From positions 62,001 to 126,000 of the forward strand of contig NZ_AMSF01000025.1 of NCBI RefSeq assembly GCF_000334915.1: a stretch of DNA of 64,000 nt, written 5' to 3'. The notes under the pieces are model-generated. The model did no database searches and had not been told where the DNA came from. It was given only the letters and a program-made list of their open reading frames with translations. How positions within the stretch are numbered: the stretch's first letter is position 1; the number at the start of each line of letters is the position of its first letter. The stretch is from Dyella ginsengisoli LA-4 (GTDB taxonomy: Bacteria; Pseudomonadota; Gammaproteobacteria; Xanthomonadales; Rhodanobacteraceae). Positions 12,750-41,659 of this stretch are shown in pieces. Made by a program: the position numbers and the translations under genes.

Positions 12750-15092
12750 TCAGAACGGCAGCGAGAACGTGCCCATCACCGCGCGGCCGGCGACCGCGTA
12801 GAACAGCGGCACGCCGTTGGCGGTGCTGGTTTCGTCGATCAGCGGGGTCTGGTTGGTCAGGTTGCTGATGCGCAGACCGAAGCGGCTGCCGCGCGGCAGG
12901 AAGCCGCCGTCCTGCAGCGTGTAGTTCAACGACAGATTGACCATCGTCACCGCCGGCAGGCGGTAGATCAGCGCCGGATTCCCGTTCGCATCCACGCCGG
13001 TGTCGCCGTAGCTGACGCCCACGTGCTTGGCCAGCAGCGAACCGCTGAAGGCGCCGGCGTGGTAGAGGACGCCGGCGGCAGACGTGGTCCTGGGTACCTT
13101 CTTCAGCTGCAGGTTGGTGCTGTTCACGGTCGCCTTGTTGTAGCTCGCGTTGCCGTAAAGGCTGAAGCCACTACCTACATAGACGCTGCCTTCGACCTCG
13201 GCGCCGCGGTAGCGGGTGCCGCCGAGATTGGTGAAGAACGTTTCCTTGCCGACCTTGTGGCTGCTGATCTGGTTGGAGAAGTTGATCGCATACACGTCGC
13301 CGGACAGGGTCCACGCGCCACCCTGCCAGCTGGTGCCGAGCTGGTAGTTCCTGGTCGACTCGGTCTGCAGGCCCTGGTTGGCCGTGCTCGGGTTGGCCAC
13401 GTAGTACAGGTTCTCGTTCGGCGCCAGGTAGCCTTCGGCAGCCTGCAGATAGGCGGACCATTCCGGCGAGATGGCGTAGTGCAGGTCGAACGAGGGCAGC
13501 GCCTTCTTCCATGTCTGGCTGTAGTCGAAGGCGGTACGCACCTTCTGCTGGATCGGCGCCACGTCGTGACGCTTGAAATAGACGTATTTCAGCCCAGGCG
13601 TGAAGGTGAGCTGGTCGGTGATGTGCCAGGCGTACTGCAGATAGGGCTGGATCGCCCAGAAGGTGCCGTCGATGCGGCGATCGGTGGCCCGGGTCGTCGT
13701 GTCGCCGCCCTTGAGGACCGGGTTCAACGCGCCGCCAAGAGTGAAGTCGATCTCGGCCTCGTATCGGTGGTAGAGCTGCTTGTTGGCCCATACGCCGTAA
13801 TCCAGCTCACCCGGCCCCAGTGACTGGGTCATGCGCAGAAGGTCACCCCAGTTGCGATATAGCAGGTACATCTTCTGGCCGGGGATGTTGGTGTCGCCGT
13901 AGACGGTGCCGTTGGGGGTGCCCAGACCCGGCGGAAAGGTGCCGTCGCCGGTCGAGCCGGCCGGGCCGCTGAGCTGGCCGTAGTCCATGTTGCCGCCGTT
14001 CGGGTCCAGGCCGTTCCAGCCGCGGTGATAGTACGAATAGGTGTACAGCTTGTTGTCGAGCGTTACCTCGCCGAGGTCCGAGGCAAGGTCGATGTATTCG
14101 AAGTCGCTGTTGAAATGGTCGTAGTTGTAACCGGTGTAAGCCTGGCTGAGCGGATTGCTGGACAGCCCGTAGCGCTTGCCGAACACCTGCATCTGGCCCT
14201 GCATGCCGCCGGTGTAGGGGTAGTTGCCATCAGACACATACGGATACGAGGTGGCGCCGACGATTGCCGCGTTGCCGCCGCCGTTGGTGTTGCGCATGGC
14301 CAGAACGGTGAGCGTGGTCGAGTCACCGAACGGCTGCACGAACTTTGCGGCCAGGTTGCTGCGGTCGACGGTGGCCCCGGACAGATAGCCGTCCGAACGC
14401 AGCTGGCGGTAGTCGAGGTAGCCGCTGCCGCCGCTGGCGAGCGTGCCGGTGTTGAACTTCACACCGGCCAGCCGGGTGGCAAAGCTGCCGAAACCGCCAT
14501 AGACCTCGGTAGTGGTGTGCGCCAGCGGGTCGCGGGTCTGCATCCCCACCGTGCCACCGAAGGTGGCGTAGCCGATGGTCGAAGCCTGGCCCGGGCCGCG
14601 GTCGACCACGACCTGCCCCAGGTCCTGCGGCATGAAGTAGTTCGACGAGTGATGGGTGAAATCGTTGGAGTCGCCGACCGGGATGCCGTCCATGGTCAGG
14701 TTGTACTGCCCATCGCCCATGCCGCGGATGACGAAGCCCTTGTTGTTGCCCAGACCCGGGCCGTTCGGCTCGATGTCGACCACGCTCGGCGCCAGCGCGG
14801 CGATCGAGCTGTAGCTGCCCATCGGCATGGTGTTGTTGTCGATATAGCCCTGGTCGACGATCGAGGACGGCTGGATCGCCTTGAGCGACACGTGGGTCGG
14901 CATTTCCGTCTCTCGCGGGGCGGTGGCCACCACGTGGATGCCCGCAAGGTTCTTGACGTGGCCACGGGCGGCCGTCGCGGTGGCGGCTGTGTCAGGCGCA
15001 GGTGCGTCGGCAGCACGGGCGGCGGGCACCATCGCGGCGGCAAGGGCCAATGCGAGCACGGTGGGTGACGGGAAGCGGCGATGCAACGACAT
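12750..15092 (-). CDS. TonB-dependent outer-membrane receptor
   Basis: Outer-membrane active-transport receptor of 780 aa. It has a signal peptide (MSLHRRFPSPTVLALALAAA), a TonB-box-like segment near LAGIHVVATA, and a plug domain with GFVIRGMGDGQYNLTMDGIP and DRGPGQASTIGYATFGGTVG. A 22-strand-type barrel follows, ending in the usual terminal Phe (MGTFSLPF). There is no N-terminal secretin/STN signalling domain, so it is a transporter rather than a FecA-type transducer. It is followed at 57 bp by the exported phosphodiesterase-type gene, then by a two-component system, all on the minus strand. Energy would come from TonB/ExbBD such as the set at 53.5-55.8 kb. The substrate is unknown; a phosphorylated compound is inferred from the neighbour. 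Confidence 0.93.
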   Translation of the reverse strand: MSLHRRFPSPTVLALALAAAMVPAARAADAPAPDTAATATAARGHVKNLAGIHVVATAPRETEMPTHVSLKAIQPSSIVDQGYIDNNTMPMGSYSSIAALAPSVVDIEPNGPGLGNNKGFVIRGMGDGQYNLTMDGIPVGDSNDFTHHSSNYFMPQDLGQVVVDRGPGQASTIGYATFGGTVGMQTRDPLAHTTTEVYGGFGSFATRLAGVKFNTGTLASGGSGYLDYRQLRSDGYLSGATVDRSNLAAKFVQPFGDSTTLTVLAMRNTNGGGNAAIVGATSYPYVSDGNYPYTGGMQGQMQVFGKRYGLSSNPLSQAYTGYNYDHFNSDFEYIDLASDLGEVTLDNKLYTYSYYHRGWNGLDPNGGNMDYGQLSGPAGSTGDGTFPPGLGTPNGTVYGDTNIPGQKMYLLYRNWGDLLRMTQSLGPGELDYGVWANKQLYHRYEAEIDFTLGGALNPVLKGGDTTTRATDRRIDGTFWAIQPYLQYAWHITDQLTFTPGLKYVYFKRHDVAPIQQKVRTAFDYSQTWKKALPSFDLHYAISPEWSAYLQAAEGYLAPNENLYYVANPSTANQGLQTESTRNYQLGTSWQGGAWTLSGDVYAINFSNQISSHKVGKETFFTNLGGTRYRGAEVEGSVYVGSGFSLYGNASYNKATVNSTNLQLKKVPRTTSAAGVLYHAGAFSGSLLAKHVGVSYGDTGVDANGNPALIYRLPAVTMVNLSLNYTLQDGGFLPRGSRFGLRISNLTNQTPLIDETSTANGVPLFYAVAGRAVMGTFSLPF

Positions 15093-33832: not shown

Positions 33833-35872
33833 ATGTCCCGAGTCTCCCTGCTGCCGCTGGCCCTGCTGGCCGGCCTGACCCTGCCGGCCTTCGCCGGCAC
33901 CGCGCCGGTCGATCCGCGCATCGACCATCTGCTGACCGAGCTGGGCAAGGTGCGCGGCATCCACGGCGTGCAGCTGTCGCCCGACGGACGCCAGCTGGCC
34001 TGGGTGGTGGACACCGACGGCGAGCCCGCGGTGATGCTGGCGAAGGCCAATGGCCGCGACGCCCACCGCCTCAACACCCGCGACGCGGCCGGCAGCTGCC
34101 GTGAATCCAGCCTCGCCTGGGCGCCGGATTCGCAGCACCTCGCGTTCCTCTCCACCTGCGCCAGCATCGGCGCGGGCAAGGGCCACCCGGCCGTGGTGGT
34201 GGCCGACACCCGTGGCGCGGCCGCCCCGGTGAAGCTGGCCGCACTGGATGGCTACGCCCGCGCGCTGCGCTGGTCGCCCGACGGCCGCGAGCTCGGCTTC
34301 CTCTACGTCGAAGGCGCCACCCGTGCCGCCAGCGCGGTGGCCGCGGCCAAGCCGGCCGCCGGCGAGATCGGCGTGGACGGGCTGGAGGTGCAGCGCATCG
34401 CCGCGGTGCCCGCCAGCGGTGGCACCGTGGAGATGCTCACCCCGGCGTCGAGCTACGTCTACGAATTCAGCTGGTCGCCAGACAGCCGCCAGCTCGCCTA
34501 CGTCGCCGCGCCGGCGCCCGGCGACAACAACTGGTGGATCGCCAGGCTGTACGCGCAGGAGGCGAAGGCCGGCGCCGAGCCCCGCGCACTGGTCGACACG
34601 CGCACCGTGGAAGGCCCGCTGCACGGCCTGCAGATGGCGCTGCCGCGCTGGTCGCCGGACGGTTCGCGGATCGTCTTCATCGGCGGCCTGATGAGCGACC
34701 AGGGCGCGACCGGCGGCGATCTCTATGCCGTGCCCTCGACCGGCGGCGCGGTCACCGCGCTGACTCCGGGCATCAAGGTCACCCCGGTGTGGTTCGGCTG
34801 GACCGGGGCCGACCGCCTGCTGGTGGCGCAGATCCGCAACGGCCGCAGCGAGGTGGCGCCGTACGCCATCGACGCCCGCCACGCCACGGCGCAGGCGCCG
34901 CTGTTCGCACTGGACGCCAGCCTCGGCGACGGCACCGCGGCGATGGGCCTGTCGCTGTCGGCCGACCATGCGAAGGTCGCGTTCGCGCAGAGCTCCTACG
35001 CCGCCGCGCCGGAAGTGCATGCCGGCCGGCTGGGGCGCACGCCGCCGCCGGCGGTCACCGCGATCAACGCGGCGCTGAAGCCGTCGTGGGGCAAGGCCGA
35101 GTCGGTCGAGTGGGACAACGAGGGCCGCCACGTGCAGGGCTGGCTGCTGTACCCGGCACACTACGACGCGAAGAAGTCCTACCCGATGATCGTCGCCGTG
35201 CACGGCGGTCCGGCCAGTGCCGTGCTGCCGCGCTGGCCGGCGGTCGGCTTCGGCGGCGTGCCGTTCTCGGCGCTGGACTACTTCGTGTTCATGCCCAACC
35301 CGCGCGGCAGCTACGGCCAGGGCGAGGCCTACGTGCAGGCCAACCGCAAGGACTTCGGCTACGGCGACCTGCGCGACATCCTCGCCGGCGTCGACACCAT
35401 CGAGAAAAAGCTGCCGGTGGACGACAAGCGCCTGGGCCTCACCGGCTGGAGCTACGGCGGCTTCATGAGCATGTTCGTGCCGACCCAGACCCAGCGCTTC
35501 CGCGCGGTGGTCGCCGGCGCCGGCATCTCCGACTGGCAGAGCTACTACGGCGAGAACCTGATCGACCAGTGGATGATCCCGTACTTCGGTGCCTCGGTGT
35601 ACGACGATCCGGCGGTGTACGCGAAGAGCTCGGCGATCCACTTCATCAAGCAGGTGAAGACGCCGATGCTGATCGTGGTCGGCGACCGCGACGCCGAATG
35701 CCCGGCCCCGCAGTCCTTCGAGATGTGGCACGCGCTGCGCACGCTCGGCGTGCCGACCTCGCTGGTGGTGTACCCGAACGAGGGCCACCACTTCGTCGAC
35801 CCGGCGCACCAGCGCGATGTGCTGCAGCGCGCGCTGATGTGGTTCGAGAAGTACCTGCCGCCGGGCGGCTGA
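33833..35872 (+). CDS. Exported S9 family (prolyl oligopeptidase/DPP-type) peptidase
   Basis: A 679-aa serine peptidase with a signal peptide (MSRVSLLPLALLAGLTLPAFA) and a seven-bladed propeller (e.g. HGVQLSPDGRQLAWVV, YEFSWSPDSRQLAYVAAP, ALPRWSPDGSRIVFIGG) followed by an alpha/beta-hydrolase domain. The catalytic triad is seen in LTGWSYGGFMSMF (Ser), VVGDRDAECPAPQ (Asp) and YPNEGHHFVDP (His); NPRGSYGQGEAYVQ is another S9 mark. It probably trims peptides, often after Pro or Ala, in the periplasm. A strong intrinsic terminator follows. Confidence 0.95.
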   Translation: MSRVSLLPLALLAGLTLPAFAGTAPVDPRIDHLLTELGKVRGIHGVQLSPDGRQLAWVVDTDGEPAVMLAKANGRDAHRLNTRDAAGSCRESSLAWAPDSQHLAFLSTCASIGAGKGHPAVVVADTRGAAAPVKLAALDGYARALRWSPDGRELGFLYVEGATRAASAVAAAKPAAGEIGVDGLEVQRIAAVPASGGTVEMLTPASSYVYEFSWSPDSRQLAYVAAPAPGDNNWWIARLYAQEAKAGAEPRALVDTRTVEGPLHGLQMALPRWSPDGSRIVFIGGLMSDQGATGGDLYAVPSTGGAVTALTPGIKVTPVWFGWTGADRLLVAQIRNGRSEVAPYAIDARHATAQAPLFALDASLGDGTAAMGLSLSADHAKVAFAQSSYAAAPEVHAGRLGRTPPPAVTAINAALKPSWGKAESVEWDNEGRHVQGWLLYPAHYDAKKSYPMIVAVHGGPASAVLPRWPAVGFGGVPFSALDYFVFMPNPRGSYGQGEAYVQANRKDFGYGDLRDILAGVDTIEKKLPVDDKRLGLTGWSYGGFMSMFVPTQTQRFRAVVAGAGISDWQSYYGENLIDQWMIPYFGASVYDDPAVYAKSSAIHFIKQVKTPMLIVVGDRDAECPAPQSFEMWHALRTLGVPTSLVVYPNEGHHFVDPAHQRDVLQRALMWFEKYLPPGG

Positions 35873-35901
35873 GCCAACCGACCGGGCCGGATGAAGCACA
35901 G

Positions 35902-35928
35902 GGGCGAGTCGCAAGACTCGCCCTTTTT
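35902..35928 (+). terminator. Rho-independent terminator of S9 peptidase gene
   Basis: Perfect 9-bp stem GGGCGAGTC / GACTCGCCC with a GCAA tetraloop, followed at once by TTTTT. It lies 29 bp after the stop codon. Confidence 0.9.
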
Positions 35929-35986
35929 GCAAGGGGCGCGCCCGGCCTCCCCCGGCCCTGCCACGAGTCACGCTTGACGACGACCC

Positions 35987-36012
35987 ATGTGTATTGATGT
36001 ACTGATACACAT
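35987..36012. promoter_or_regulatory. Inverted repeat over the start codon of the GntR/YtrA regulator
   Basis: ATGTGTAT and ATACACAT are perfect 8-bp arms with a 10-bp spacer. The right arm includes the first two bases of the ATG at 36011, so bound protein would block transcription or initiation. This fits autoregulation by the GntR-family protein encoded there. Confidence 0.65.
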
Positions 36013-36394
36013 GGACGCATCGCTGCTTACCATCCAACCCGCCTCGGCCGAGCCGATCTACCGGCAGATCGTCGAGCAGCTGCGCCGCCTGATCGCCGGC
36101 GGCCAGCTCGCCGCGGGCGACCTGCTGCCCTCGGTGCGCGAGGTGGCGGCGTTCCACGCGATCAACCCGATGACCGTCTCGCGCGCCTACGGCATGGCCG
36201 AGTCCGAAGGCCTGCTCGAGCGACTGCGCGGCAAGGGCATGGCGGTGGCTGCCACCACGCGGCCGACACAGACGCAGGCACAGCGGCTGGCTCTGCTGGA
36301 GCCGCAGCTGCTGGCGCTGGCGCGCCACGCCCGTGAACTGGAACTGCCCGCCGCGGCGGTGCTGCGGCGGCTCGGCCGCCTGCTGGAGGACTGA
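36011..36394 (+). CDS. GntR family regulator, YtrA subfamily
   Basis: A 127-aa regulator with a GntR winged helix (EPIYRQIVEQLRRLIAGGQL, then LLPSVREVAAFHAINPMTVS, and YGMAESEGLLERLRGKGMAV) and only a short helical tail. This is the YtrA layout, which typically represses linked ABC-transporter genes. The ATG at 36011 is chosen; the frame is open further upstream, but that part holds the inverted repeat. The following CPBP gene starts one base after the stop codon, and ABC ATPase and permease genes follow, so the whole set is probably one autoregulated operon. Confidence 0.92.
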   Translation: MDASLLTIQPASAEPIYRQIVEQLRRLIAGGQLAAGDLLPSVREVAAFHAINPMTVSRAYGMAESEGLLERLRGKGMAVAATTRPTQTQAQRLALLEPQLLALARHARELELPAAAVLRRLGRLLED

Positions 36395-36395
36395 G

Positions 36396-37172
36396 ATGTT
36401 TATCCACCTCGCCCTGATGGGACTGGTTGGCTGGCTGCTGGTGGCCGAGCCCCTGCTGGGGAGGCGCGCATCGTTGCACCTTGGGCAAGCGCTCGATCGC
36501 GGCGAAGCGGATGCGCGCACGCGATTCCTGCTGGCCTGGACCTGGCAGGGCTGGACCCTGGTCGGTGTAACGCTGGCGATCGCGCTAGGCCTGGCCGGAT
36601 GGAGCCCGGCGCAACTGGGTCTGGCCTGGCCGCGCGTCCCGGCTGGCCTCGACGGCGGCGTCCTGCTCGGAATGACGGCGTCCATGATCGCCGGCGCCCT
36701 GATCGCCGCAGTCGGGCTGTGGGTAGCGGCGCGCCGACGGCACGGGACACCTGCGGCAACCCCGGCGATCCCGGCAGCACCGGCAGCCGTGCTGCGCATG
36801 CTGCCGCGCACCCGGCGCGAACGGCTTGCCTTCGCTGCACTGGCGCTGACCGCCGGTATCGGCGAGGAGATCGTCTGGCGCGGCTTCGGCCTGGCCGTAT
36901 TGCGCACCTGGCTGCCCCATGCCGGCCCGTTGCCTTACGTGCTGCTGCTCGCCACAACGTTCGGCTGGGCCCACCTCTACCAGGGCCGCGCCGGGGTGAT
37001 CGTCACCGCGCTGGTCGGCGGCGTGTTCGCCGCGCTCTATCTCGCCAGCGGCAGCCTGCTGGTCCCGATGGTGCTGCACGTGCTGATGGACCTGCGCGCC
37101 CTGCTTATCCGCTTGCCACCGGACGACCCTCACGCGGCAGCGTCCGGTCCATCCACCAGGGAGGTTTCATGA
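36396..37172 (+). CDS. CPBP family intramembrane metalloprotease
   Basis: Polytopic membrane protein of 258 aa with the CPBP/Abi (Rce1-like) motifs: motif 1 AGIGEEIVWRGFGLAVLR (EExxxR), motif 2 TFGWAHLYQGRAGVIVT (FxxxH), and motif 3 LLVPMVLHVLMDLRA (HxxxD-like). Family members process or bind membrane peptides, often for bacteriocin immunity or prenylated substrates. The ATG at 36396 is one base after the regulator stop, and its own stop overlaps the ABC ATPase start (ATGA-type). Its presence suggests the exporter handles a processed peptide or an envelope-active compound; that is inference. Confidence 0.88.
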   Translation: MFIHLALMGLVGWLLVAEPLLGRRASLHLGQALDRGEADARTRFLLAWTWQGWTLVGVTLAIALGLAGWSPAQLGLAWPRVPAGLDGGVLLGMTASMIAGALIAAVGLWVAARRRHGTPAATPAIPAAPAAVLRMLPRTRRERLAFAALALTAGIGEEIVWRGFGLAVLRTWLPHAGPLPYVLLLATTFGWAHLYQGRAGVIVTALVGGVFAALYLASGSLLVPMVLHVLMDLRALLIRLPPDDPHAAASGPSTREVS

Positions 37173-38065
37173 ACGCGATGCTCAAGGACGCCGCCGACCG
37201 GCTCGATCCGCCGCTGGCGGCCCATGGCCTGGGCCATGGTTACGAGGGTGCCACCGTGCTGCACGGCATCGACCTGGCGCTGGCACCGGGCAGCGTGCTC
37301 GGCCTGATCGGCCGCAACGGTGCCGGCAAGTCCACCCTGATCCGCGCCATGCTCGGCCTGCTCGAACCGGCTGCCGGCGAGGCCCGTGTGTTCGGCCAGC
37401 CGGCGCTGCGCATGGACGACCAGGCAAAGGCGCGTCTGGCCTACGTGCCGCAGCAGCCGGAAGCCCTGGGCTGGCTCACCGCCGCACAACTGCTCGACTA
37501 CGTCGGCCGGTTCTATCCCCGATGGGATGCGCGCTTCGCCGGAAAGACCCTCGAGCGCTGGAAGATCCCGCCAAACAAGCTGCTGGCCAAGCTGTCGCCG
37601 GGTGAGCGGCAGCGGGTCGACCTGATCAGGGCACTGGCCTCGCAGCCGGAACTGCTGGTGCTGGACGAACCGGCCGCCGCGCTCGATCCGGTCGCCCGCC
37701 GCGAACTGCTGCGCGAGGTGGCGCTGCGGGCCGGCGAATCCGGCACCACCGTACTGTTCTCCACCCACATCGTCTCCGACCTGGAGCGGATCGCGTCGGA
37801 CATCGCCTTCCTGCACGAGGGAAAGCTGCTGCTGCACTGCGCCGCCGACGACACCAAGGAGCGCTTCGCCCGGCTGTGGCTGCCGGCGGCGATGAGTGCG
37901 GCCGCACCCGCCGCTGCATTGAGTCGGCGTCGGCATGAGGACGGCAGCCTCAGCCTCGTGGTGGAGCGCGATGAGCGCGGCCAGTGGCCGGAGGCGTCAC
38001 GGTTGAACGGAGCGCGCGTCGACGCGCTGGGGCTGGAGGACCTGTTCGTGGAGGTGGCCGAATGA
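37169..38065 (+). CDS. ABC transporter ATP-binding protein
   Basis: A 298-aa ATPase. Walker A is GLIGRNGAGKSTLIRAML; the Q-loop is AYVPQQPEALGW; the signature is AKLSPGERQRVDLIRAL, LSPGE rather than the usual LSGGQ; Walker B is LLVLDEPAAALDPVARREL; and the switch His is in TVLFSTHIVSDLERIASD. The C terminus has about 70 extra residues. It starts within the CPBP stop and its own stop overlaps the permease ATG (ATGA). Together with the permease it forms an exporter of the kind YtrA-type regulators control (e.g. cell-wall-antibiotic response in Bacillus). Confidence 0.93.
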   Translation: MNAMLKDAADRLDPPLAAHGLGHGYEGATVLHGIDLALAPGSVLGLIGRNGAGKSTLIRAMLGLLEPAAGEARVFGQPALRMDDQAKARLAYVPQQPEALGWLTAAQLLDYVGRFYPRWDARFAGKTLERWKIPPNKLLAKLSPGERQRVDLIRALASQPELLVLDEPAAALDPVARRELLREVALRAGESGTTVLFSTHIVSDLERIASDIAFLHEGKLLLHCAADDTKERFARLWLPAAMSAAAPAAALSRRRHEDGSLSLVVERDERGQWPEASRLNGARVDALGLEDLFVEVAE

Positions 38066-39552
38066 GAGCGCGCGACCTGCTGCTGACCTTCGGGCGGACC
38101 ACCTACCCCTCGGTTCGGTGGCTCGTGGGAGGCGTGTTCCCGCTCGGGGTCGCGGTCGCCATCGTTGTCCGCCTGCTGTGGCCGGGGGCGAAGGGCGGAC
38201 ATATCGCGCTGCTCGCCTTCGAGGGCGGCGTGGCCTACCTGTGGGCCTTTTTCATGCCGGCGAGCCTGCTGCTGGCCCGCGACGCCCGGCAACTGCGCAT
38301 TCCGCGGCTGGAGGCGGTGGCAGCCGCTGCCGTCGGGCTCGCGGCGCTGGCGACCGTCGGAATCGGGGCAGCACTCGGAAAAGCGACGCTGGGGGAGACC
38401 AGCGCGGCCGCCCTGACCGCGCTGGTGCTTGCATCGGGATTCGCATTCAGCCTGCTGCCGGGTCCGGTAGCAATGCTGATCGGACTCCTTCCCGCCGCGT
38501 CCGACGCGGCGCGGCGGGTGCTGCCCGTTCCCACGCTCGACGATCCCCGTTCGACGATCTGGTGGGCAGTGGCCGCGGCAGGCTTCGGCGTGATCTGTGC
38601 CATACGCTGGCACGGGCTGATTCGCCTGGACGACCGCGAGGCCGAACGCTCCAGCGCCATGGTGATGCGCCTGCGCGGCAAGAACGCCACCGGCCATTGG
38701 GCCGGCAGCGGCGCCGGCGTCCGCACCGTGGATCGGCGACGGCCGGGCTGGCTGCAGCCGGAGGCGAACCTCCGGCGCACCGGCCCGGCGCATCCGGTGG
38801 CCTCGCTGCGCGTGGCGCTCGGCGGCGGGTTCGTGCCGCAAACCCTGCGGGGACTCTGCCGCCGCGGCCTCACGATGGCCGGGCCGATGCTGGTCTTCAT
38901 CGCTGCGATGATGCTGATCCTCGCCACCAAACCTGATGCCACCGTGTCGTCGCTGGGGGTGATCTATGCACTGGGCACCCCCATGCTGGCCGGGCTCGCG
39001 TTCATGCTGGCACTCGGCCTGCCGCTGGTCAGTGCCCTGACCGTGCGCCAGCGCTGGTCCACGTCGCAGCGCGAACTGGCGGTGCTGGGGGTGCTGCCCG
39101 GTCTGGGTACGCCCGACCGGGTCCGCCAGGCTCTGCTGCGGGCTGCCCTGGCGCGGCCCGTCGTCATCAATCTGCTGCTCACCGTGGCGGGATGGATCAT
39201 CGCCCAGCGCATGAATCTCAGCGTCATCGCCACCCTCGCGCTGGTCGGGGCGCCGCTGCTCTGCCTCCTTGCCGGCGTGGCGTTGACGCTCGACGCGCTC
39301 GGCCCGCAGCCGTTGCGCGGCTGGGCCCTCGGTCTGGTGTGCAGCGCATTGACCATCGTGGTGCTCATCAGCACGATCACCGGCATGCTCGCCAGCCAGT
39401 TGCGGCAAGGCGGTCCCTGGGCCGGATCGCCTGCCTTGTGGAGCATCTACCTCGCGGTGGCGCTGGCACTGACCACGGTGCTCGGCTGGATCGCAGCACG
39501 CGGCGCTCGCGGCATGGCACGGCAGCCACACCCGTTCCTCGCCCACGGATGA
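38062..39552 (+). CDS. ABC transporter permease-like membrane protein
   Basis: Integral membrane protein of 496 aa with many hydrophobic helices, e.g. LVGGVFPLGVAVAIVVRLLW, VAAAAVGLAALATVGIGAAL, MAGPMLVFIAAMMLILATKP and LVCSALTIVVLISTITGMLA. No strongly conserved motif is visible, as is common for ABC-2-like permeases. Assignment rests on its position: its ATG overlaps the ATPase stop (ATGA). Codon use is like that of its neighbours. It is followed 16 bp later by three paralogous small membrane protein genes. Confidence 0.8.
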   Translation: MRARDLLLTFGRTTYPSVRWLVGGVFPLGVAVAIVVRLLWPGAKGGHIALLAFEGGVAYLWAFFMPASLLLARDARQLRIPRLEAVAAAAVGLAALATVGIGAALGKATLGETSAAALTALVLASGFAFSLLPGPVAMLIGLLPAASDAARRVLPVPTLDDPRSTIWWAVAAAGFGVICAIRWHGLIRLDDREAERSSAMVMRLRGKNATGHWAGSGAGVRTVDRRRPGWLQPEANLRRTGPAHPVASLRVALGGGFVPQTLRGLCRRGLTMAGPMLVFIAAMMLILATKPDATVSSLGVIYALGTPMLAGLAFMLALGLPLVSALTVRQRWSTSQRELAVLGVLPGLGTPDRVRQALLRAALARPVVINLLLTVAGWIIAQRMNLSVIATLALVGAPLLCLLAGVALTLDALGPQPLRGWALGLVCSALTIVVLISTITGMLASQLRQGGPWAGSPALWSIYLAVALALTTVLGWIAARGARGMARQPHPFLAHG

Positions 39553-39568
39553 TCCAGGAGCGTCGACC

Positions 39569-39907
39569 ATGACTCCGACCACGGCACGAAGCCTCGCCGA
39601 GCAATATCGACTCCCCGTCGCCACGACCGCCGAGATCGTCGGTGAGGCGACCCGTCAGGCGCTGCTGCGCTCCGGATGGTGCTGGACCCTGCTCGTGATC
39701 GGGCTCGGCGGCGCCGCTGGCCTGGCGTATGCGCTGGGCGATTCCGCCCCGGGAGACCATCACGAACTGAACATCTTCGCCCTGCTCATGGCGATCCAGG
39801 TGGTGATGCTGGCCTGGCGGCTGCTGGGCCAACGACTGGCGCGCCGGGCCATCCATGCCGAGGCGGCACGCATCGCCGCTCGCGCCCATCCGGAGCCGGA
39901 CGCATGA
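39569..39907 (+). CDS. Small membrane protein, first of three tandem paralogs
   Basis: A 112-aa protein of unknown family. It has an N-terminal helix with SLAEQYRLPVATTAEIVGE, two predicted membrane helices (WTLLVIGLGGAAGLAYAL and IFALLMAIQVVMLAWRLLG), and a basic/Ala-rich C-terminal helix (AIHAEAARIAARAHP). GGAG precedes the ATG. The two following genes have the same plan and related end motifs, and this stop overlaps the next ATG. It may be an accessory subunit of the adjacent ABC exporter; no function is known. Confidence 0.78.
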   Translation: MTPTTARSLAEQYRLPVATTAEIVGEATRQALLRSGWCWTLLVIGLGGAAGLAYALGDSAPGDHHELNIFALLMAIQVVMLAWRLLGQRLARRAIHAEAARIAARAHPEPDA

Positions 39908-40236
39908 TCGCGCGCACCGCGATCCGCCCGGAATGGCTGGCCGCACGTTACGGGCTGCGGCTGCCGGTGGCACGCGCCGTGGTACGCGACCACAGCCTCA
40001 GGCAGTGGCGGCGCTACGGCTGGCTGGCGCCTCCCACCGCCGCGCTCTGGCTGACCAGCGCGGCCGGAGACTTCGGGTGGGTGATACTTCCACGCGGTTG
40101 GGGCGGTCTCATGGTGGCTGCCGCGCTGCTGCTGCTCGGCCTGCACCTGTGGCTGGCACAGCGCGCGGCACGGGTGACGATCATGGCCGAAGCGGAGCGG
40201 CTGGCGCGCGATCCCATCGCTCGCAGCAGGGAATGA
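39904..40236 (+). CDS. Small membrane protein, second of three tandem paralogs
   Basis: A 110-aa product beginning MIARTAIRPEWLAARYGLRL. It repeats the plan of the preceding gene: an N-terminal LAARYGLRLPVARAVVRD helix, two membrane helices (WLAPPTAALWLTSAAGDFGW and LMVAAALLLLGLHLWLAQRA), and a C-terminal TIMAEAERLARDP helix. Its ATG overlaps the previous stop (ATGA). The longer frame upstream is rejected because it is a shadow of the first paralog. Function unknown. Confidence 0.78.
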   Translation: MIARTAIRPEWLAARYGLRLPVARAVVRDHSLRQWRRYGWLAPPTAALWLTSAAGDFGWVILPRGWGGLMVAAALLLLGLHLWLAQRAARVTIMAEAERLARDPIARSRE

Positions 40237-40240
40237 CGTC

Positions 40241-40585
40241 ATGCGATGGATCACCACGCAGCGCTTGGCCCGCGCCTACCGCCTTCCGTGGACGCAGGCC
40301 GAACGGATCGTGCGCGAGGAGTGCCTGCGGGCCGGCACGCGCGGAGGTCGCGCATGGGCGCTGGCGCTGATCCACCTCGCCGGTCTGTTCTGGCTGCTGT
40401 TCGGTGCCCACTGGCTGTTCCCCGCCCTGCATGGGTGGACACGCATGGGGATCGAATCGCCCGGCCTGCTGGTGTCGATGATCACCATGCTCGTGCCGCG
40501 CCTGCTCGCCGGTGATGTCATGCGGGTGCATGCCGAGGCGCTCGCCGCAACCGCGGAGCATTCAGAACAACTGCCCCTGCGGTGA
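40241..40585 (+). CDS. Small membrane protein, third of three tandem paralogs
   Basis: A 114-aa product beginning MRWITTQRLARAYRLPWTQA. It has an N-terminal RLARAYRLPWTQAERIVREE helix, two membrane helices (WALALIHLAGLFWLLFGAHW and LLVSMITMLVPRLLAGDV), and a C-terminal VMRVHAEALAATAEH helix, matching the two preceding proteins. It starts four bases after the second paralog. Its last 24 bp overlap the 3' end of the convergent radical SAM gene, so the C-terminal tail is shared antisense. Function unknown. Confidence 0.78.
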   Translation: MRWITTQRLARAYRLPWTQAERIVREECLRAGTRGGRAWALALIHLAGLFWLLFGAHWLFPALHGWTRMGIESPGLLVSMITMLVPRLLAGDVMRVHAEALAATAEHSEQLPLR

Positions 40586-41659
40586 CGACGGGCGCGGCGG
40601 CACGAAGCGGGTGGTGTCGAGCTGGAGATCGCGCGCGCGGCCGAAGCCGTGCCGGCGACAGGCGACCTCGAAGCGCCGCTTGAGCAGGTCGGCGAACACG
40701 CCCTGCCCGCGCATGCGGGTGCGGAAGTCGCTGTCGTAGTCGCGCCCGCCGTTCATCTGCTGCACCAGGCTCATCACGTGGGCCGCGCGATCCGGGGCGT
40801 GCAGGGCCAGCCATTCGCGGAACAGCGTCTTCAGCTCGTACGGCAGGCGCACCACGGTGTAGCCGGCGCAGGAGGCGCCCGCGTCGGCGGCCTGTTCGAG
40901 CACCGCCTCCATGTCGCGGTCGTTCAGCGCGGGGATGATCGGCGCGACCAGCACACCCACCGGCACGCCGGCCGCGGCCAGCGCGCGGATCGCTTTGATC
41001 CGCCGGTGCGGGGCGCTGGCGCGCGGTTCCAGCTTGGCCGCGAGGTGGTTGTCCAGCGAGTTCACCGACACGAACACCTGTACCAGGTTGGCCTCGGCCA
41101 TCGGTGCGAGCAGGTCGAGATCGCGCTCGACCAGCGCGTTCTTGGTGACGATCGTGCATGGGTGCCCGCAGCCGGCCAGCAGCTCCAGTGCGGCGCGGGT
41201 GAGGCGCCAGCGCTTCTCGATCGGCTGGTAGGGATCGGTGTTGCTGCCGATGTTGATCGGCTCCACGCGGTAGCCCGGGCGTGACAGTTCGTGGCGCAGC
41301 ACCTCGGCGAGGTTGCCCTTGGCGCGCAGCTTGGTCTCGAAGTCGAGGCCCGGTGACAGGTTGAGGTAGCTGTGCGAAGGCCGCGCGAAGCAGTAGATGC
41401 AGCCGTGCTCGCAGCCGCGGTACGGGTTCATCGCCTGGCTGAAATGAATGTCCGGCGAGTCGTTGCGGGTGATCACGCTGCGCGCGCGTTCTTCGCTGAC
41501 TTCGGTGCGTGGCCGTGGCGCTGCGTCGTCCAGCAGTGCGCTCTGCCAGCCGTCGTCCTCGGCCTGGCGGCGCAGGGTCTCGAAGCGGCCTTCCGGGTTG
41601 GAGGCCGCACCACGGCCTCTGTGGGCCCGGGGCGAAAAGGGGTCGTTGAAGTCGGACAT
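40562..41659 (-). CDS. PA0069-family radical SAM protein
   Basis: A 365-aa SplB-like radical SAM enzyme. The [4Fe-4S] motif is in NPYRGCEHGCIYCFARPSHS (CxxxCxxC), followed by SYLNLSPGLDFETKLRAKGN and INIGSNTDPYQPIEKRWRLT, typical of the PA0069/Rv2578c family. The C terminus holds LFREWLALHAPDRAAHVMSL. The substrate is unknown; relatives repair or modify DNA photoproducts, but this subgroup is uncharacterised. The ATG at 41659 begins MSDFNDPFSPRAHRGRGA, the usual start, rather than the earlier in-frame codon at 41710. Confidence 0.92.
   Translation of the reverse strand: MSDFNDPFSPRAHRGRGAASNPEGRFETLRRQAEDDGWQSALLDDAAPRPRTEVSEERARSVITRNDSPDIHFSQAMNPYRGCEHGCIYCFARPSHSYLNLSPGLDFETKLRAKGNLAEVLRHELSRPGYRVEPINIGSNTDPYQPIEKRWRLTRAALELLAGCGHPCTIVTKNALVERDLDLLAPMAEANLVQVFVSVNSLDNHLAAKLEPRASAPHRRIKAIRALAAAGVPVGVLVAPIIPALNDRDMEAVLEQAADAGASCAGYTVVRLPYELKTLFREWLALHAPDRAAHVMSLVQQMNGGRDYDSDFRTRMRGQGVFADLLKRRFEVACRRHGFGRARDLQLDTTRFVPPRPSSPQGQLF

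Follow-up and report, generated by a model that had tools for sequence, protein, structure and literature searches.

Two-helix small membrane proteins encoded behind a YtrA-type ABC exporter operon: candidate accessory subunits

Described systems and the operon of the window

The closest described systems include ABC transporter operons in which a GntR-type repressor or a small membrane protein accompanies the transporter. The YtrA subfamily of the GntR regulators is described as combining a winged helix with a short C-terminal domain in 120-130 aa (PMC6746942). In Bacillus subtilis, a repressor of this type is encoded in its own ABC operon, ytrGABCDEF, and its operator is given as AGTGTA-13bp-TACACT (PMC8060467). 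The operon studied here has the same arrangement, with GTGTA-12-TACAC as the corresponding pattern, but differs in its content: it has a single ATPase gene and zero to three small hairpin proteins, its long permeases, one or two in number, belong to no Pfam family, and its CPBP gene is optional. This comparison is one of operon layout. The VraDEH system of Staphylococcus aureus is described with a small transmembrane protein, VraH, as the third component of an ABC system, whose interaction with the ATPase VraD depends on the presence of the permease VraE (PMC5786555). Our small proteins are likened to VraH by role; VraDE is grouped with the BceAB-like transporters in the same paper, whereas the permease model here is ABC-2-like.

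The PmtR-Pmt system of Staphylococcus aureus also has a GntR repressor beside an exporter, and the cargo of the exporter is reported to displace PmtR (PMC5080381). Among the NCBIfam models, our ATPase matches PmtA best (E 4.3e-40) and our YtrA has the PmtR model (E 6.9e-14) as its second hit, both below the cut-off. The PmtCD chains have 247-251 residues; our permease, in contrast, is a single 496-residue chain accompanied by the small hairpins. Over most of this permease, the closest solved structure is a mycobacterial efflux pump (8k1o/8k1n/8k1p; VIA Z 9.6 for 8k1o over 386 residues, rmsd 5.9), with 14% identity and a Foldseek E of 0.036, so that common descent is not established.

The window, i.e. 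the whole stretch of 64,000 nucleotides of Dyella ginsengisoli LA-4 analysed here, encodes seven co-directional genes in the order ytrA-CPBP-ATPase-permease-S1-S2-S3, with junctions of -4 to +16 nt (Table 1). The small genes S1, S2 and S3 form the 3' end of the operon. A preliminary description of this DNA had placed three small genes at 39569-40585 behind the other four; the coordinates are right, and gene order and spacing confirm the arrangement. S2 starts 4 nt before the end of S1, the ATPase and permease genes also overlap by 4 nt, and the last 24 nt of S3 overlap the convergent radical SAM gene that flanks the operon; an S9 peptidase gene lies on the other side (both flanks assigned by Pfam). 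GGAG-like ribosome-binding sites precede the genes behind ytrA, that of S3 being weaker.

Table 1. Features of the operon, in positions of the window
Feature	Position	Strand	Observation
-35-like TTGACG upstream of ytrA	35974..35979	+	TTGAC/TTGCA-like element in 57/60 distinct upstream regions
Predicted YtrA operator GTGTAT-N10-ATACAC	35989..36010	.	abuts ytrA start codon
ytrA, YtrA-type GntR repressor, 127 aa	36011..36394	+	Pfam GntR PF00392, E 6.7e-17, residues 17-79
CPBP/Rce1-like intramembrane protease, 258 aa	36396..37172	+	PF02517, E 5e-17
ABC ATPase, 298 aa	37169..38065	+	PF00005, E 4.1e-27
Exporter permease, 496 aa, ABC-2-like model, no Pfam family	38062..39552	+	11 hydrophobic stretches, ~11 membrane helices
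S1, two-TM small protein, 112 aa	39569..39907	+	S1-type clade support 95/96
S2, two-TM small protein, 110 aa	39904..40236	+	S2-type clade support 100/97
S3, two-TM small protein, 114 aa	40241..40585	+	model pLDDT 78.2, pTM 0.51

The window permease has no match above the cut-off in Pfam or NCBIfam, and the ABC-2 membrane model of Pfam matches neither it nor 32 family members at E 0.1. We compared its predicted structure (pLDDT 85.7, pTM 0.84) with the solved ones. The VIA list contains the ABC exporters 8k1o, PmtCD, ABCG2, NosDFY and CcmABCD at Z 8-9.6, the second half matches PmtCD (9q1y) at Z 8.9 over 205 residues, and designed helical proteins reach 9.0. The models support a putative ABC-2-like exporter permease; since the Foldseek match is weak and designed helical proteins score that high, this class assignment rests also on the adjacent ATPase. 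Among the 45 permease loci, ten carry two permease genes in tandem (L065, L066, L067, L073, L077 and L079-L083) and L076 may hold more; the tandem copies fall in different clades in several genomes, e.g. G022, G068, G081 and G146.

The CPBP gene is optional, being called in 8 of the 45 loci and in one of these (L069) before ytrA. In L089, a CPBP remnant lies between ytrA and the ATPase gene; all that can be recognised corresponds to residues 1-31 and 213-245 of a related CPBP protein, and the part between them is missing. L154 (10440-10763), L081 and L082 have an extra membrane gene of 106-107 aa, placed after the second permease and ahead of the small gene; it gives no small-protein profile match and, in the L154 copy, no Pfam family.

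A family of small membrane proteins

The three small proteins are well diverged from each other. The BLASTP alignment of S1 with S3 covers most of both proteins (E 6e-7), that of S1 with S2 only 16 C-terminal residues (E 0.02), and S2 and S3 have no similarity in this pairwise search. With relatives added, profile-profile comparison gave probabilities of 89% for S1-S2, 97% for S1-S3 and 90% for S2-S3, while all 20 control runs with one alignment reversed stayed at or below 12%. Judged by these profiles, the three are members of one homologous family. This agrees with the preliminary description, which took them for tandem paralogs despite their divergence; a lack of profile similarity would have spoken against it, and similarity was found for all three pairs. 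The common N-terminal helix, two membrane helices and C-terminal helix proposed there hold as a majority consensus in two alignments with few invariant columns. In 23 members, the majority pattern runs from LxxxYGLPxxxAxxIxxE through a basic stretch and two membrane helices joined by a short loop to a C-terminal RxxARxxILAxA helix, and the sole invariant positions are M1 and one Ala.

Basic residues are more common in the flanks of the hairpin than in its loop (0.21 per position before the hairpin, 0.11 in the loop and 0.17 after it, in 28 members), which suggests that both ends face the cytoplasm (N-in/C-in). In S2, the first membrane helix has low hydrophobicity, at 1.06 on the 19-residue scale. 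The S3 model, built with nine sequences, consists of a short helix, a long helix including the first membrane stretch, another short helix and a long helix including the second one. The dN/dS values against the nearest relative, G029, are 0.56, 0.27 and 0.64 for S1, S2 and S3, all below 1, compared with 0.17 for the ATPase and 0.06 for the radical SAM gene, so the small proteins are under looser constraint.

None of the 23 members reaches the Pfam cut-off (best E 0.0055, 16.6 bits vs 24.3), nor do the S1-S3 of the window reach that of NCBIfam (best E 0.0022, 17 bits vs 150), in line with the earlier remark that no named family was recognised. Searches of the solved structures with sequence profiles of the small proteins and the permease gave nothing below E 0.04. 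The small-protein model gave a best Foldseek E of 5.3 and a best VIA Z of 7.5 over 18 chains; for such a model this Z is at the level of common helical arrangements and is no demonstration of a new fold.

We searched 147 genomes of the window's family, judged from the available names to be probably Rhodanobacteraceae, with a 23-member profile made from operon copies, counting matches of E 1e-10 or better as strong. There are 28 strong matches in 18 of the genomes; 28 genomes matched at E 0.01, ten of which (best E 1.7e-5 or weaker) were left out of the strong set. In or beside the operon lie 27 of the 28 strong matches, and 26 are behind a permease. One further small membrane gene without a profile match precedes the matched one in G146, G081 and G022, the operon of G022 is followed by an M16 peptidase gene with one strong match behind it, and one, an intact S1-type copy in G006, is far from the operon. 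An M16 peptidase gene follows the operon in L155 (14058-16724, 888 aa; Pfam assignment of this copy), and it is found in a like place in 11 further loci (881 aa in L086), from one genus group and one other genome. In L170 (11889-14921, a Rhodanobacter MAG), the small gene continues in frame into the following peptidase gene, giving 1010 aa with its own C-terminal helix lost; an assembly error could explain this.

Of the 147 genomes, 47 have the operon-type ytrA (E 1e-38 or better) and 45 the permease (E 0.001). Strong small-protein matches occur in 17 of the 47 genomes with operon-type ytrA vs 1 of the 100 without it (Fisher p 5e-9, uncorrected for the relatedness of the genomes). In that single genome, G086, a permease adjoins the small gene at a contig edge. 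The other 30 of the 47 have no strong match, so the exporter would need no small protein in general, and the number of small genes per operon ranges from 0 to 3. Among the named contigs, those with both the operon and a small gene belong to Rhodanobacter (L154, L155, L161), Fulvimonas (L157) and Rudaea (L171). Operons on contigs of Dyella, Frateuria, Luteimonas and Pseudoxanthomonas have no small gene among the genes called; the calls in the compared loci come from a simple script that may miss or misplace genes, and some small genes that it missed were recovered by a six-frame search.

An order-wide search found matches at E 1e-6 in 16 of 299 genomes, three of them in a sister family, and a fourth sister-family genome, G521, matched weakly, at E 6e-9 with the S1 profile only. 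In the class (185 genomes) the only matches besides the window's own were at E 0.001 or weaker, and the S1-type profile found nothing besides the window's own in 299 genomes of the phylum. S1-type copies stand alone in G006, G419, G459, G530 and, weakly, G521. None of the sister-family genes (the last four genomes) is beside a permease or ytrA. The permease is absent at E 0.001 from G419, G530 and G521, that of G459 is elsewhere in the genome than its S1-type copy, and a ytrA of the operon type is missing from G419 and G530 at E 1e-30. Members of S2, S3 and the other two clades of the tree were found only at the operon. The co-occurrence with the ABC operon raised in the preliminary description is hence strong but not absolute: homologs without the ABC genes exist in a few genomes, not widely. 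At L108 (7093-9786), three called genes are repeated at an offset of ~1.5 kb beside an orphan small gene.

The tree of the small proteins separates the S1, S2 and S3 types with supports of 95/96, 100/97 and 91/83, each with rows from more than one genus, and two further clades that were found in one genus group only. Because the S1, S2 and S3 clades each span more than one genus, the triplet is old and not a recent tandem duplication. All four stand-alone copies in the tree (G006, G419, G459 and G530) are S1-type and lie inside the S1 clade; the G521 copy is not in the tree, and the long-branch rows of G076 and of the second G034 copy are in the first tree and were left out of the later one. 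The S1 proteins of G000, G029 and G045 group together (95/91 in one tree, 91/88 in the other). Neither an operon-type ytrA nor a permease turned up in G005. In place of the operon, this genome has between its S9 peptidase and radical SAM genes an ABC1-kinase gene and a remnant resembling S3 that carries two stops, as would be expected for a part that has no use without the rest of the operon.

Permease divergence and the possible role of the small proteins

The permease differs strongly between species of the same genus. We compared the window with G029, G045 and G003, in this order, using 52, 50 and 51 other window genes, whose median identities are 96, 97 and 94% (lowest 64, 58 and 42%). The identities are 89, 29 and 31% for the permease, 93, 75 and 74% for the ATPase, 93, 50 and 45% for S2 and 69, 74 and 55% for S3; S1 has 85 and 40% with no match in G003. 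A TonB-dependent receptor gene of the window (12750-15092, Pfam) is also variable, with 58% and 59% against G045 and G003 and 89% against G029.

The synonymous divergence against G045 and G003 is 1.04 and 1.14 for the permease and 0.18 and 0.20 for the S9 peptidase. Since it is raised in the permease too, an exchange involving distant alleles is favoured over rapid change by itself. The four same-genus permeases do not form a clade in a tree of 20 species (p-AU 0.004, an optimistic value as the clade was named after the first permease tree had been seen and the test used 20 of the species in that tree), while the ATPases of the four species do, with modest support (84/88). It seems that the permease gene was swapped between species and that its neighbours remained in place.

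The small proteins do not travel strictly with the permease, because the S1 proteins of G000, G029 and G045 group together though the G045 permease is of the other type. An obligate pairing of small protein and permease is not supported: small proteins are distributed patchily on the permease tree, with 14 changes of which at least six are forced by starred branches, and S2 and S3 diverge where the permeases are closer, i.e. between G045 and G003, whose permeases are 66% identical but whose S2 and S3 are 43% and 58% identical. That the small proteins persist with different permease types suggests that their partner is the ATPase, or that their role is a general one, rather than that they fit a permease surface. 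The ATPase side would be the constant partner, since these S1 proteins and the four ATPases group while the permeases do not. We speculate, rather against the odds, that the exporter is modular: the permease, presumably the specificity-bearing part, would be replaced from distant alleles, the repressor, operator, ATPase and old hairpin adaptors would stay with the host lineage, and the hairpins would serve as universal couplers through which a single ATPase could power permeases only ~30% alike.

Our analysis points, with about even confidence, to S1-S3 being accessory two-helix membrane hairpin subunits of the co-encoded ABC-2-like exporter in a YtrA-repressed operon, binding the ATPase or its contact with the permease. 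The linkage to the operon, the shared control, the decay where the operon is missing and the hairpin topology all fit this reading. The mechanism that we infer, from topology and binding partner to cargo, induction and the leaderless ytrA start, would be as follows. The hairpins would sit in the membrane with both ends in the cytoplasm, where their N-terminal helical part and C-terminal helix could bind the ABC ATPase or the ATPase-permease contact, and this binding would tune the assembly, activity or substrate range of the exporter. YtrA bound up to the ytrA start codon would silence the operon until the cargo or envelope stress lifts the repression, so that exporter and hairpins are switched on together. 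By analogy, a membrane-active compound would be a reasonable guess for the cargo.

An alternative hypothesis could be that the S1-type proteins are independent membrane proteins, perhaps of the envelope-stress response, which the YtrA operon acquired and which, after duplication there, share no more than their regulation with the exporter. We consider this possible but doubtful. Its best evidence is the position of the stand-alone copies inside the S1 clade, and the three genomes with an S1-type copy and no permease fit it, as does the scattered presence over the permease tree; however, S2, S3 and the two remaining clades are confined to the operon, nearly all strong matches in the family lie there, and G005, which has no such operon, retains only a broken copy. 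It is unlikely, in our view, that S1-S3 are immunity proteins, each against a class of exported or incoming peptide, acting alongside the CPBP protease and the exporter. A set of small hairpins, exporter and CPBP protease is reminiscent of peptide-immunity loci, and both the strong difference of the permease between same-genus species and the varying number of small genes would suit such a function, but few permease loci have a called CPBP gene and the small proteins have no PADLOC match at E 0.01.

The preliminary description had left open whether the small proteins are exporter subunits or a sensing module. The linkage to the ABC operon speaks for the subunit, though not strictly given the lone S1-type copies without a permease, and the sensing module is weakened because ytrA and the operator are intact also in operons without a small protein. 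Membrane sensors passing an envelope signal to YtrA would suit the N-terminal helical part predicted outside the membrane, the basic flanks and a transcription unit shared with ytrA by gene spacing. Control needs no small protein in those operons, however, and two genomes (G419 and G530) have the S1-type gene but no operon-type ytrA, which makes such sensors quite improbable. That S1-S3 are short pieces derived from the permease is hardly credible, even though they are membrane proteins encoded directly behind it: five small-protein alignments compared with the 32-member permease alignment gave at most 5% probability.

If the accessory-subunit reading is true, a family without a Pfam or NCBIfam entry, from one bacterial order as far as sampled, joins the accessory subunits of the ABC exporters. 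The choice of partner, ATPase or permease, would then be directly testable in same-genus species whose permease is far more divergent than the rest.

The YtrA regulator and its predicted operator

The YtrA of the window fits the YtrA subfamily in length, in its GntR domain, in being the first gene of an ABC operon and in the dyad site at its own promoter. We collected 60 distinct regions upstream of ytrA genes more than 60% identical to that of the window. The pattern GTGTA/CTGTA-N12-TACAC ends exactly at the ytrA start codon in 59 of them (56 with GTGTA only), and the -35-like element, where present, lies 7-10 nt upstream of the operator. Scanning 35800-40800 for consensus sigma-70 promoters gave none. 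As this layout leaves no ribosome-binding site before ytrA, the ytrA message is likely leaderless.

The perfect operator occurs exactly once, before ytrA, in seven of the eight genomes searched, with no second perfect copy in these seven; G005 has none. Because the predicted operator abuts the ytrA start and has a single perfect copy per genome, the control of the operon looks local and self-directed. YtrA matches at E 1e-10 occur in 144 of the 147 genomes and are of operon type in 47, so a second YtrA-type regulator is common; the non-operon matches have 35-44% identity among the matches listed. We also considered HpaR1 of Xanthomonas as the same regulator and rejected it by its description: the available text of two papers presents it as a global regulator and mentions no such operon (PMC4730234, PMC6430473). 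One limited literature collection yielded no paper on Rhodanobacter with YtrA or on CPBP with YtrA.

The single-copy operator-like site offers a route to the inducing signal and hence to the cargo. Sites with a single mismatch number one in G000, one in G003, two in G045 and three in G006, and a reversed-pattern control gave 0 except in G032. One of these in G006, a second operator-like site at G006:C1:3280106-3280127 (L201 8107) with a -35-like element, stands before genes for a hydrolase, an ABC ATPase and an ABC-2 permease and away from the orphan small gene found in G006.
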